DNA from: Lentilactobacillus sp. SPB1-3
GTDB lineage: Bacteria; Bacillota; Bacilli; Lactobacillales; Lactobacillaceae
Length of the DNA stretch: 64,000 bases
NCBI RefSeq assembly: GCF_026913205.2
Contig: NZ_CP168151.1
Location: 930,001 to 994,000 of the forward strand
Direction: 5' to 3'
Part shown: in pieces, positions 49,733 to 53,500 of the stretch
Numbering within the stretch: the stretch's first letter is position 1
Layout: each line of letters begins with the position of its first letter
The notes under the pieces: model-generated
The model's database searches: none
What the model saw: only the letters and a program-made list of their open reading frames with translations
What the model was told of the DNA's origin: nothing
Position numbers and translations under genes: made by a program

Positions 49733-50104
49733 TTATGGCTGACTCCAACGATTTGGTTTAGAAGGTAATAAGGTCAAAATAAAGAACCAAAGATTTCCAA
49801 TTAGTGGAACTATCGTAATTAAAATCCACCACCCAGAACGATCAGTATCGTGTAATCTGCGAACCTTCAAAGACAGAACACCAAGCCATACAATAAAAAT
49901 GACAATGTCTGAGAAAATAGTAAAGTCAAAACCTGGAGAATTTTGAGTATCCATAAAGTGATGACCCGTGGACATTTCAATAATAGCAACAATGATACCA
50001 CCCAAAATATAATTAATAATAATTGGCCACCAATAGTCGGGACGATCTGCTGTTCCAGAAAAATTGGTGATGTTATGCCAGAACTTCTTGTATGAATCAA
50101 CCAT
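49733..50104 (-). CDS. DUF805 family membrane protein (copy 1)
   Basis: 123 residues with the DUF805 layout: aromatic N-terminus (FWHNITNFSGTADRPDYWWP), three to four membrane helices, and the KVRRLHDTDRSGWWIL motif before the last helix. Function unknown. A close paralogue of the same length lies at 52251-52622, which suggests duplication within this island. Confidence 0.88.
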   Translation of the reverse strand: MVDSYKKFWHNITNFSGTADRPDYWWPIIINYILGGIIVAIIEMSTGHHFMDTQNSPGFDFTIFSDIVIFIVWLGVLSLKVRRLHDTDRSGWWILITIVPLIGNLWFFILTLLPSKPNRWSQP

Positions 50105-51245: not shown

Positions 51246-51623
51246 CTAACTTGTCATGTTACCTAGATTGGTTATTCTTATTAATTTATATTGGTGTAGC
51301 AGAATTGACTTCATATTAATGTCTACGCCGATATTCCCTTTAAAACCACTCACTTTGGCAGGAAAATATGCAATTCTTCCTGCGCCTTGGTTATCCGCAG
51401 TGAACTTTAGTGTGATTTTCTTCTGTGTTTTTAACTTGTTATATACTTCCTTATCTCGGACTATATTTTTCAATCTGGAGTACTTTTTATCTGTTAGGGC
51501 AGTATTGATATAGTTTTGTGTATAGGTTTCCATACTTTTGTCAGACATTACCCATTGAAAAATTGTTATTAAGACTAATAATCCAATTAAAAATACAAGC
51601 ATGACATTAAATCCATTTTTCAA
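51246..51623 (-). CDS. Small membrane-anchored protein (paralogue pair, copy 1)
   Basis: 125 residues: N-terminal helix (VMLVFLIGLLVLITIFQWV), then an extracytoplasmic domain with YTQNYI, KKITLKFTADNQGAGRIAYFPAKV. Homologous along its length to the protein at 50706-51065. The ATG-like start is TTG at 51623 after AGGAGG if read as MKNGF; the ribosome site spacing is good. No family recognised. Confidence 0.68.
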   Translation of the reverse strand: MKNGFNVMLVFLIGLLVLITIFQWVMSDKSMETYTQNYINTALTDKKYSRLKNIVRDKEVYNKLKTQKKITLKFTADNQGAGRIAYFPAKVSGFKGNIGVDINMKSILLHQYKLIRITNLGNMTS

Positions 51624-51645
51624 TGTAAAGTCCTCCTTTTGAAAT

Positions 51646-51689
51646 TCCCTATGCTTGAATCGGACGGGCGTTGGCCACCACGTAGGGGA
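51646..51689 (-). ncRNA. Degenerate tRNA-like element C
   Basis: On the minus strand: a purine/pyrimidine pair TCCC-TA with TAGGGA (one bulge), a linker with GTGGTGG and CAACGC, and a loop TCCGATT at 51664-51658 whose flanking stem has two mismatches in five. It matches elements A and B in position and linker but is poorly preserved, and it lacks the 33-bp tail. Confidence 0.3.
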
Positions 51690-51740: not shown

Positions 51741-52139
51741 TTACTTCAAGAAATTTGTGTAAGTTAATTTATTTACTTTTTGAAATGAAAATCCTTGGGT
51801 ATATAGTCGATTGTTAACTTTCTTGAAAGTTGCAGCTTCAGTACCTTGATTTGAATAATAGATCGTAACATATGGTTTAACATAAGTTACTTTTTTAATA
51901 TTAAATGTAGGTGCCTTATCAAGTGAATATTTCTTCATATAATTTGAAGAAATTGCAAATTTGATATGCTTCATACTAATTGCCATTGAGAGAGGCTTTT
52001 TCTTGTTTAAAGAAACGTAATAACCTCTAATGCTTTGCGGAACCGTCTTATACGTTGCAGCGTTGGCATTGACTGCACTGGACATTCCAGTGAATGACAG
52101 AGCAACTAAACCAGCTAGCACATAATGCTTTAAATTCAT
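51741..52139 (-). CDS. Small secreted protein
   Basis: 132 residues from the ATG at 52139 (after CTGGGGA). Signal peptide MNLKHYVLAGLVALSFTGMSSAVNANAA, cut near AxA, then a basic, beta-rich domain with SLNKKKPLSMAISMKHIKFAIS. The frame extends upstream to an ATG at 52178 (MTIKAEYIWGYKI), which would put 13 polar residues before the signal peptide; see the leader-peptide finding. Function unknown; resembles small Lactobacillus proteins with a DUF-type cell-surface fold. Confidence 0.68.
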   Translation of the reverse strand: MNLKHYVLAGLVALSFTGMSSAVNANAATYKTVPQSIRGYYVSLNKKKPLSMAISMKHIKFAISSNYMKKYSLDKAPTFNIKKVTYVKPYVTIYYSNQGTEAATFKKVNNRLYTQGFSFQKVNKLTYTNFLK

Positions 52140-52193: not shown

Positions 52194-52238
52194 TCTCCTG
52201 GTTCGAATCGAACGAACGCGAGCTCACCAGAGAGGAGA
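52194..52238 (-). ncRNA. tRNA-like element B
   Basis: Minus strand, 5' to 3': TCTCCTC (52238-52232), 14-base linker TCTGGTGAGCTCGC, T-arm GTTCG-TTCGATT-CGAAC (52217-52201), then CAGGAGA (52200-52194). The outer helix has six pairs (TCTCCT/AGGAGA) and the T-arm five perfect pairs with the tRNA loop TTCGATT. No anticodon arm and no CCA. Compared with element A both helices differ in sequence but keep pairing. Confidence 0.5.
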
Positions 52239-52250
52239 CTTAAAAGCTAT

Positions 52251-52622
52251 TTATTTGTTTTCCCAACGGTTTCTACGAGTTGGTAGAACCATCAGAACGA
52301 AGAACCAAATGGTACCAATAAGGGGAATTAAATCAATTAAAATCCACCAACCAACGTGATCAGAATCATGTAGTCGTCTAATTTTAACTGAAATTGTTCC
52401 AATCCAAACGATTAGTGAAACAATGCGAGCAACAGTGTTAACTGATAAATCGTTCAGATTATAGATATCATTGATGGGGTGACCTAGTAAAGTATTGATA
52501 ATAGCAATAATTAATCCACCTAATACATAATTAATAATTACAGGCCACCAATAATCAGCTCTACCTGATGTTCCAGAAAAGTTTAAAATATTTTCCCAGA
52601 ATCTTTTATAAGAATTTACCAT
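52251..52622 (-). CDS. DUF805 family membrane protein (copy 2)
   Basis: 123 residues, paralogous to the protein at 49733-50104: FWENILNFSGTSGRADYWWP at the N-terminus, three or four membrane helices, and KIRRLHDSDHVGWWIL before the last one. Function unknown. Its start is three bases after the stop of a possible 11-codon leader peptide whose 3' part holds the GGGAGG ribosome site. Confidence 0.88.
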   Translation of the reverse strand: MVNSYKRFWENILNFSGTSGRADYWWPVIINYVLGGLIIAIINTLLGHPINDIYNLNDLSVNTVARIVSLIVWIGTISVKIRRLHDSDHVGWWILIDLIPLIGTIWFFVLMVLPTRRNRWENK

Positions 52623-52625
52623 TTC

Positions 52626-52661
52626 CTAATCCTCCCATACATATTCAGCTTTTAACGTCAT
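52626..52661 (-). CDS. Possible leader peptide (11 codons)
   Basis: ATG at 52661 to TAG at 52626 on the minus strand, reading MTLKAEYVWED. The matching stretch downstream of element B reads MTIKAEYIWG. The changes are conservative (L to I, V to I), which hints at coding. The ribosome site of the DUF805 gene lies inside it and its stop is three bases before that gene, so translation could be coupled. Short and unproven. Confidence 0.3.
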   Translation of the reverse strand: MTLKAEYVWED

Positions 52662-52673
52662 CAGTGTTTGGAC
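52641..52673 (-). repeat. 33-bp tail repeat, copy A
   Basis: Matches 52158-52190 at 31 of 33 positions. It follows tRNA-like element A by four bases on the minus strand. Confidence 0.85.
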
Positions 52674-52677
52674 GTAT

Positions 52678-52719
52678 ACTCACCAGCGGAATCGAACCAC
52701 TGCGAATACCATAGTGAGT
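52678..52719 (-). ncRNA. tRNA-like element A
   Basis: Minus strand, 5' to 3': ACTCACT (52719-52713), 11-base linker ATGGTATTCGC, T-arm AGTGG-TTCGATT-CCGCT (52701-52685), then GGTGAGT (52684-52678) and an A. The acceptor-like helix has seven pairs (one G-U) and the T-arm five (one G-U), with the seven-base tRNA T-loop. The GG of the linker could dock with the T-loop as in a tRNA elbow (inference). It begins two bases after the stop of the PH-like/SHOCT gene. Confidence 0.55.
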
Positions 52720-52721
52720 TA

Positions 52722-53189
52722 TTACATATCTAGAATCTGCTTCTTTTTGTTATTAAATTCTTTTTGAGTGATTGTGCCATCATCCAATAATGCTTTGAAT
52801 TTCTTAAGTTCGTCAGCATCTGACAATTTGTTTTCAGAGTTGTGATTGAGTAGATAATCTTCAACGAAATTTTTTATTTGTTCAATCTCATCGTTATGAA
52901 TTTCTCGGAATACTACGTTATTTGCTTTATTGAAAGCTCCGTTACTAAATCCGGGTAGGGCACCAAAACCATTAGTTTTTTGATTGCCTGCAGCAGTAAC
53001 AAAATTTATTTGACCGGCGATTAATTTTGATCGTTTAAAATTAATTCCAATCACACTTGAAAGTGGGATGACCTGCTCACCATTTTGGCCACGATTAAGA
53101 AAACTTCTAACTCCTAATCGAGTAATGACAATTTTAGCATCATCAACATCAATGATTACATGTTCAGGTATTTTAACTTCTACGTGCAT
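52722..53189 (-). CDS. PH-like domain protein with C-terminal SHOCT motif
   Basis: 155 residues from the ATG at 53189, preceded by AAGGAGG; an upstream extension of the frame lacks a ribosome site. Residues about 1-110 look like a bacterial PH-type beta domain (VIIDVDDAKIVITRLGVRSFLNRG... GINFKRSKLIAGQINFVT). The end, LKKFKALLDDGTITQKEFNNKKKQIL, is a SHOCT motif, usual in proteins that oligomerise or bind membranes. Specific function unknown. Confidence 0.82.
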   Translation of the reverse strand: MHVEVKIPEHVIIDVDDAKIVITRLGVRSFLNRGQNGEQVIPLSSVIGINFKRSKLIAGQINFVTAAGNQKTNGFGALPGFSNGAFNKANNVVFREIHNDEIEQIKNFVEDYLLNHNSENKLSDADELKKFKALLDDGTITQKEFNNKKKQILDM

Positions 53190-53500
53190 TTTATATCCCT
53201 CCTTATTAAAAATTAGTTGTATCTTGCTTTGAAAATGGCACATGTTTAATAACTATTGAGTTTAATACAACATTTTCTATTATTCATTTTTTATTTATCA
53301 ATTCTGTTAGCTTTAATTTCAGTAGAATCAAGATAAATTTAATTTTTGAAAGGTTTTCGAAATAGAAAGGTTAATATGGGAACAACTTTAAAATAACTTC
53401 AGATAAACATTAACTTATTTTACTATATCATTATGTTATGCATAAGTTAATAAAGTACAGTCTATAATATATGATAAAATGAAATCAATAACAATTCTCA
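53190..53500. other. AT-rich intergenic stretch without a gene
   Basis: About 310 bases, strongly AT-rich, with stop codons in all frames. From about 53470 onward it resembles the sequence after the endolysin gene at 58553, so it is probably the relic of a duplicated 3' end plus terminator. No RNA gene recognised. Confidence 0.6.

Follow-up and report, generated by a model that had tools for sequence, protein, structure and literature searches.

The window analysed here is a stretch of 64,000 nucleotides from Lentilactobacillus sp. SPB1-3, in which a run of minus-strand genes is interrupted by gaps that hold three short tRNA-like elements, A, B and C, and, downstream of A and B, a second conserved hairpin motif (Table 1). 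The products of the genes after B and after C matched no family in Pfam or PHROGs, and the former carries a TYKTVPQSIRG stretch that by eye resembles a protein in a prophage region of the same genome (from the open reading frames of L248; L numbers are our handles for loci). Holin and endolysin genes lie at 56.9-58.6 kb of the window, and the region from A to C appears to be a prophage remnant. Two further regions of this genome, read by eye, contain a repressor, an ImmA-like gene, genes for small secreted proteins and an integrase, with elements between the genes. A second DUF805 gene (PHROG 12855) occupies 49733-50104 of the window, also on the minus strand; by eye, the sequence upstream of it contains neither a tRNA-like element nor the hairpin motif.

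Table 1. Genes and RNA features around elements A to C (window coordinates; R1 and R2 are the covariance models described in the text)
Feature	Position	Strand	Evidence and remarks
Gene upstream of A, protein with C-terminal SHOCT domain	52722..53243	minus	Pfam SHOCT 1e-7; PHROGs 888 and 2700
Element A, mini tRNA-like structure	52678..52719	minus	R1 E=2.3e-8; R2 E=1.4e-8 (whole genome; R2 includes A)
Second motif downstream of A, hairpin ACGTC-CAAACACTGAT-GACGT then TAAAAGCTGAA	52644..52675	minus	Shared with B
Gene between A and B, DUF805 membrane protein	52251..52622	minus	Pfam DUF805 1.6e-20; PHROG 12855 (category moron) 2.7e-23
Element B, mini tRNA-like structure	52194..52238	minus	R1 E=2.3e-4; R2 E=1.8e-6 (R2 includes B)
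Second motif downstream of B, TTGTC-CAAACACTGAT-GACAA then TAAAAGCTGAA	52161..52192	minus	Shared with A
Gene after B, product small and probably secreted; likely start at 52139	51741..52139	minus	ORF list
Element C, third copy, partly decayed	51644..51688	minus	R1 E=5e-4; R2 E=5.0e-6 (R2 includes C)
Gene after C, 125-aa protein with hydrophobic N-terminal stretch	51246..51623	minus	ORF list

Element A consists of ACTCACT, an 11-nt linker with TGG, a T-arm AGTGG-TTCGATT-CCGCT and a closing GGTGAGT, which gives 7 + 5 pairs if G-U is counted, and B consists of TCTCCT, a linker with TGG, the T-arm GTTCG-TTCGATT-CGAAC and AGGAGA, with 6 + 5 pairs followed by a C-C mismatch. An initial sequence-only reading had proposed that A and B share one fold on the minus strand, and its helices, loops and pairings are present as described. 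It had also placed each element in the gap after one gene and before the next, where they indeed lie: A begins 2 nt 3' of the stop of the SHOCT gene and 55 nt ahead of the start of the DUF805 gene, B lies 12 nt 3' of the DUF805 stop with the next start 54 nt downstream, and C starts 52 nt past the preceding open reading frame, about 20 nt ahead of the TTG start of the frame at 51246-51623. The same reading referred to an element "C" that it did not list, which is presumably this third copy. Thermodynamic folding does not set A and B apart, so that the pair on its own is weak evidence: the folding energies of the single sequences are unremarkable (z = -1.6 for A, about 0 for B), and hence the case for both rests on their homologues.

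Two covariance models were used. R1 was built from nine elements, none of them from this genome, with L258, a close relative of A, left out; R2 is a wider model of 37 sequences that includes A, B and C. Under R1 the bit scores are 42.0 for A, 25.9 for B and 24.5 for C, while the next-best match in the 64-kb window, with filters off, has E=2.2; in the R1 alignment C shows two mismatches in the T-stem and one in the acceptor helix. A and B are thus members of a family of miniature tRNA-like RNA elements, hereafter minis, which is directly supported by these homologues. The family fold comprises an acceptor-like helix of 6-7 bp, a linker of 11-14 nt with GG and a T-arm with its T-loop, and it has neither an anticodon arm nor CCA. 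In the listed elements both stems of this acceptor/T-arm domain pair, and the T-loop has 7 nt.

Since a subgroup with 6-bp acceptors came out of register in MAFFT and model-based alignments, 35 elements were registered by hand for the pair count; related sequences are counted separately in this list, and most rows had been picked with pairing, T-loop and GG in mind. Standard pairs occupy 378 of the 420 pair cells of this list; in 1000 shuffles in which the 3' letters were dealt anew, the mean was 249 and the highest count 268. All four Watson-Crick types are used at pairs 5-68, 6-67 and 52-62, and G53-C61 is kept in 34 of the 35 elements. The linker GG is found in every one (35/35), although GG guided most of the picks, and this agrees with the tRNA-elbow-like make-up that had been suggested. 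The outer pairs are looser (1-72 is unpaired in 9/35 and 7-66 in 18/35), which counts against a reading of the elements as processing sites between genes. Because most of the 35 rows had been chosen partly for pairing, the pair test was repeated on places in the window and in loci up to L451 that were found by letters only, namely those of the linker, the T-loop and the first base of the 3' T-stem strand. Of these 30 places, 21 form five or more of the 7 acceptor pairs as well as four or more of the 5 T-stem pairs; two of the remainder resemble degenerate copies and seven resemble chance matches. The mean number of acceptor pairs is 5.3, compared with 4.4 in shuffled sequences (maximum 4.9 in 500), and the mean number of T-stem pairs is 3.9, compared with 2.4 (maximum 3.0). 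Covariation in the family is thus directly observed, and the earlier claim of a selected RNA structure is borne out, since homologues in other genomes keep the pairing.

The proposed search of Lactobacillaceae with a covariance model likewise returned structural homologues with covariation. With R2, this genome shows six copies (A, B and C, another two at about 1.34 Mb and a sixth at 1.44 Mb), and 50 of 251 Lactobacillaceae genomes, in 18 of 40 genera, contain a match at E<=0.01, a census that takes weak matches with E between 1e-4 and 0.01 as scored; counted from the same table at the stricter E<=1e-4, there are 28 of 251 genomes in 12 genera. Of 198 genomes in an order-wide sample, 13 have a match, including 4 that belong to other families (best E=4.9e-6); of 200 in a class-wide sample, only one does, the genome under study itself. 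The distribution is a direct result of these searches, in which stricter filters lose weak matches and the E-values of both models are rough. Homologue loci were taken where longer pieces of the motif matched, and further minis turned up in them either beside the second motif or without it. A descriptor scan gave 134 distinct matches, real tRNAs among them, against 61 in one mononucleotide shuffle and served for finding candidates only. A scan of genomes and viral contigs with a 15-base pattern was discarded as evidence for the family, the matches listed being mostly noise.

Placement was assessed on 75 distinct elements, that is, 79 candidates minus four called as tRNA by ARAGORN, after 17 duplicate loci of this genome had been set aside; C, which fails the descriptor, is absent from this set, which still includes near-identical relatives and some matches that are partial or due to chance (e.g. 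L403). Most of them (52/75) start between -1 and 15 nt past the stop of an upstream open frame with 40 or more codons, so that tRNA-like units stand between coding genes and abut coding ends, as in tRNA punctuation. Where both neighbours are near (n=50), 40 elements lie close behind a stop, compared with 13.1 expected for even placement in the gap. For the other 23 of the 75, no stop was detected within 15 nt, which speaks against the same interpretation. A plausible start codon is found 27-144 nt downstream in 54 of the 75, a distance less tight than that to the stop codon. The 3' context is that of an RNase Z substrate: position 74, behind the discriminator, is U in 72 of the 75, and CCA follows in none. 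Both the placement and this RNase-Z-type context are directly supported by these counts. Similarly, the 11 host tRNA genes of the L249 cluster appear to lack an encoded CCA tail, each being followed by T, with the ends judged by eye. An automatic terminator check with 5-nt arms, by which 4-bp hairpins are missed, flagged none of the 79 candidates. By eye, the elements of L002, L453 and L258 lead directly into short terminator-like hairpins of the form CCC(C)..GGGG-TTTT, and at L007 a half-lost copy, whose 5' acceptor strand is gone, also abuts such a hairpin. The L002 and L007 copies, both in this genome, are the last ones ahead of an integrase gene.

Wherever surroundings were read, the elements sit between prophage accessory genes, with L430, a gap between helicase and primase genes, as the exception by which the element is not limited to accessory genes. 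The copy in L430 belongs to a subtype, GCCAAGT..ACTTGGC, seen at L430:9326-9371, L422:1534-1579 and L469:1501-1546 with ATTCAGCGCTGAAAAT next in all three. Members of this subtype follow the stop codon of a large open reading frame at a distance of -1 to 6 nt; in L430 this frame is the helicase gene, with the primase gene next. The region of L363 matches Latilactobacillus phage TMW 1.1365 P3 with 98.6% identity over 93% of the query; in the phage the matching stretch lies between a Peptidase_M78 gene and the integrase.

The second motif starts 4 nt past A and 3 nt past B, and the stretch conserved downstream of both reads TCCAAACACTGATGAC-nn-TAAAAGCTGAA, shortly before the ribosome-binding site. 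Its general form is a hairpin, nGTC-CAAAnnCTGAn-GACn, with a TAAAAGCTGA tail, and it is found shortly before start codons at 156 distinct places in the fetched loci L001-L451. The search pattern dictates the core letters, and a few instances resemble chance matches. Of the 155 that could be counted, 112 have T-A and 38 have A-T as the middle stem pair; the adjoining pair on the outer side varies among A-T, T-A, T-G and C-G and is formed in 127. The conserved stretch is present in 18 of 24 genomes of the genus with up to 2 mismatches; among the matches listed, Companilactobacillus is one of the named records, and the stretch can be followed into viral contigs as well. The exact combination of T-loop and second motif occurs in 7 of 397 genomes of the family, with a chance match in one or more of these (G299). 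A tRNA-like element is missing upstream of many genes that have the second motif, a point against the reading of the minis as processing sites. Among 20 loci, the motif matched no Rfam family at gathering score. It was also compared by inspection with the hammerhead ribozyme, which its CTGATGA..GAAA-like letters recall, and with the kink-turn, and both were rejected: copies in this genome read GTACA where GAAA is needed, and the base after CTGA varies.

The related prophages also carry longer tRNA-like units. tRNA-Met genes lie in gaps of their contigs; those of L363 and L371 and one of two in L360 have a start codon about 28-30 nt downstream, as many minis do, and that of L271 stands 9-10 nt ahead of the second motif. 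In addition, 28 distinct pseudo-tRNAs keep acceptor, D- and T-arms around a free middle of 33-50 nt that replaces the anticodon arm. Their kept ends show 99% and 94% mean identity, most of those letters being required by the search pattern, and their middles 37% in an ungapped count. Many lead directly into the second motif, the two in L312 match RF00005 (46 bits), and Lactobacillus phages Sha1 and PM411 are partly similar named records for the contigs concerned. Pseudo-tRNAs were seen in L291, L294, L297, L312, L361, L386, L405 and others, often two or three per contig, and the middles seem to come from a restricted set that is combined in different ways. By analogy, the pseudo-tRNAs suggest that the processing end of a tRNA is under selection while decoding is not, and to that extent support a processing role for the minis. 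Unlike minis, however, the tRNA-Met genes start 21-88 nt past a detected stop, and only 8 of the 28 pseudo-tRNAs lie within 15 nt of one. Tight placement is thus a property of the minis only, and the reading as punctuation is correspondingly less firm.

The minis match no known RNA family that was compared. ARAGORN calls one tRNA in the window, away from the elements, and at gathering score Rfam 15 reports a T-box, an L20 leader and the same tRNA in it; between 51900 and 53000, thresholds up to E=5 add only three implausible matches, away from A and B. The tRNA model RF00005 is silent at A and B up to E=5, at A, B and C at gathering score, and, also at gathering score, at the minis of 19 related loci. 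Without this match and without an anticodon arm, the minis are not cloverleaf tRNAs. The tRNA-like domain of tmRNA combines acceptor and T-arm with a D-loop that lacks a D-stem. The minis share the acceptor and T-arm but have neither a tag reading frame, at 45 nt, nor CCA, and ARAGORN and Rfam called no tmRNA at the elements examined. A relation to the DUF805 RNA motifs of the literature was considered and dropped: none is among the Rfam matches around A and B up to E=5, and searching for papers on them gave nothing. Among the top matches in the open-licence PMC literature, no paper was recognised that describes such a family. Hence the parts are of known kinds, tRNA-like RNase P substrates and tRNA punctuation, while a widespread prophage mini-tRNA behind stop codons is unmatched in Rfam 15 and in the literature searched. 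The prophage context, the closeness to stop codons, the second hairpin motif and the pseudo-tRNAs of related prophages all go beyond what the sequence-only reading had reported.

Among the roles first suggested for the elements, that of an RNase P/RNase Z processing site is probably the leading one. The element resembles a stripped-down tRNA precursor, with an acceptor helix, a D-loop-like linker and a T-arm but no anticodon arm, and its sequence and covariation provide the acceptor/T-stem-loop helix of an RNase P substrate, with the 5' leader assumed to be unpaired. The elements mostly lie close behind stop codons in what we infer to be one polycistronic prophage message. Host RNase P would cut at the 5' side, a few bases past the stop codon; at the 3' side, host RNase Z would cut behind the discriminator base. 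This would leave the upstream mRNA with a short, defined 3' terminus and give the downstream mRNA a new, short 5' leader that contains its ribosome-binding site and sometimes the second hairpin; the presumed purpose is to uncouple neighbouring genes. On balance we lean towards this view, in which host RNase P and RNase Z cut prophage transcripts at minis and split the messages of neighbouring genes.

Several known systems invite comparison. pATSer is a hairpin derived from tRNA-Ser. Like synthetic minimal RNase P substrates (AT1 and tRNA-Ser-derived hairpins such as pATSer), the minis keep acceptor stem, T-stem and T-loop; unlike these laboratory constructs with a 3' end that pairs with RNase P, they are natural, lack CCA, carry an 11-14-nt GG linker and stand between genes. 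M3 RNA and C4, the antisense RNA of P1/P7, are single RNAs and, in contrast to the minis, not a repeated, covarying intercistronic element. The synthetic substrates are cut by E. coli RNase P RNA (PMC11143913), pATSerUG is used as a control (PMC12710915), and M3 and C4 are phage transcripts that host RNase P cuts at non-tRNA structures (PMC11143913, PMC12710915), both being natural substrates of the enzyme (PMC11143913). The same work reports that E. coli RNase P prefers a CCA end in a T4 precursor (PMC11143913), which counts against cutting of the CCA-less minis. In bacteria, RNase Z cuts CCA-less precursors behind the discriminator, and CCA inhibits it (PMC7479834, PMC8549757). In PMC7479834, however, it is archaeal enzymes that are described as processing precursors without D, T or anticodon arm, with the B. 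subtilis enzyme distinguished from them, and a bacterial RNase Z may for that reason cut a mini-substrate poorly. PMC5474008 describes mitochondrial mRNA maturation as driven by tRNA cleavage, although that punctuation uses real tRNAs, whereas the minis lack an anticodon arm and occur in prophages. The mascRNA and menRNA of the human long noncoding RNAs MALAT1 and NEAT1 differ in their larger cloverleaf and are set beside the minis by description only. RNase P and RNase Z have a role in their generation. According to PMC9777231, such RNAs are tRNA-like transcripts generated enzymatically from longer RNA.

Other explanations must be weighed against this one. The minis might mainly protect or define the 3' end of the upstream mRNA, or work with a terminator, downstream separation being a by-product. 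mascRNA is itself thought to protect or define the 3' end of MALAT1, the minis hug the upstream stop rather than the downstream start, and the elements of L002, L453 and L258 and the half-lost L007 copy abut terminator-like hairpins, with the L002 and L007 copies last before an integrase gene. Yet the terminator check, blind to 4-bp stems, flagged no candidate, and a plausible start codon follows in 54 of the 75 elements, so we regard a purely 3'-end role as unlikely, if well worth keeping in mind. Alternatively, the second hairpin so close behind A and B, both some 55 nt ahead of starts, could point to a leader regulator, akin to a riboswitch or T-box, in which binding of a ligand or protein controls translation of the downstream gene. 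With the pattern used, however, this motif lies within 60 nt downstream in only 15 of the 75 elements, and it is the stop distance, not the start distance, that is tight, which makes such a regulator very improbable.

A role in trans is improbable too, if a little less so: a stable, excised mini-tRNA would bind RNase P, EF-Tu or the CCA enzyme and alter the host in favour of the prophage. The retained T-loop and GG linker, the presence of two or more copies in some prophages (e.g. L363 and L413) and the varied 33-50-nt middles of L291-type pseudo-tRNAs would fit such a small RNA or decoy, but it has no need of placement close behind stop codons. Finally, phages use tRNA genes as attachment sites, and tRNA genes and pseudo-tRNAs are present in the related prophage regions, so that the minis might be remnants of integration or of one decayed host tRNA. 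A fragment left by phage integration keeps only the 3' half of the host tRNA, whereas both acceptor strands are present in the minis, and remnants would not keep a complementary, covarying 5' strand at narrow spacing; in the regions read, moreover, the elements lie between phage genes. Nor are they decayed copies of one ordinary tRNA gene, the outcome that had been named as fatal to the initial proposal, because the stem sequences differ with pairing kept and the Rfam tRNA model is silent at A and B up to E=5 and, at gathering score, at the minis of 19 related loci. Covariation thus largely contradicts an origin as remnants, to which we give the least credence.

Returning to RNase P/RNase Z processing as the preferred role, a broader and more tentative proposal, which we hold possible but would not bet on, is that prophages of lactobacilli evolved modular punctuation, in which minis close behind stop codons, and in relatives pseudo-tRNAs or real tRNA genes in the gaps, let the essential tRNA-maturation enzymes of the host cut operons into single-gene messages. 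If so, newly acquired accessory genes would become self-contained expression cassettes, and the minis would represent in nature what the minimal RNase P substrate is in the laboratory, and in bacterial viruses what tRNA punctuation is in mitochondria. A large, defined family of candidate substrates makes the natural extent of mRNA processing by bacterial RNase P and RNase Z directly testable, and it suggests how accessory genes could join prophage operons without disturbing their neighbours.
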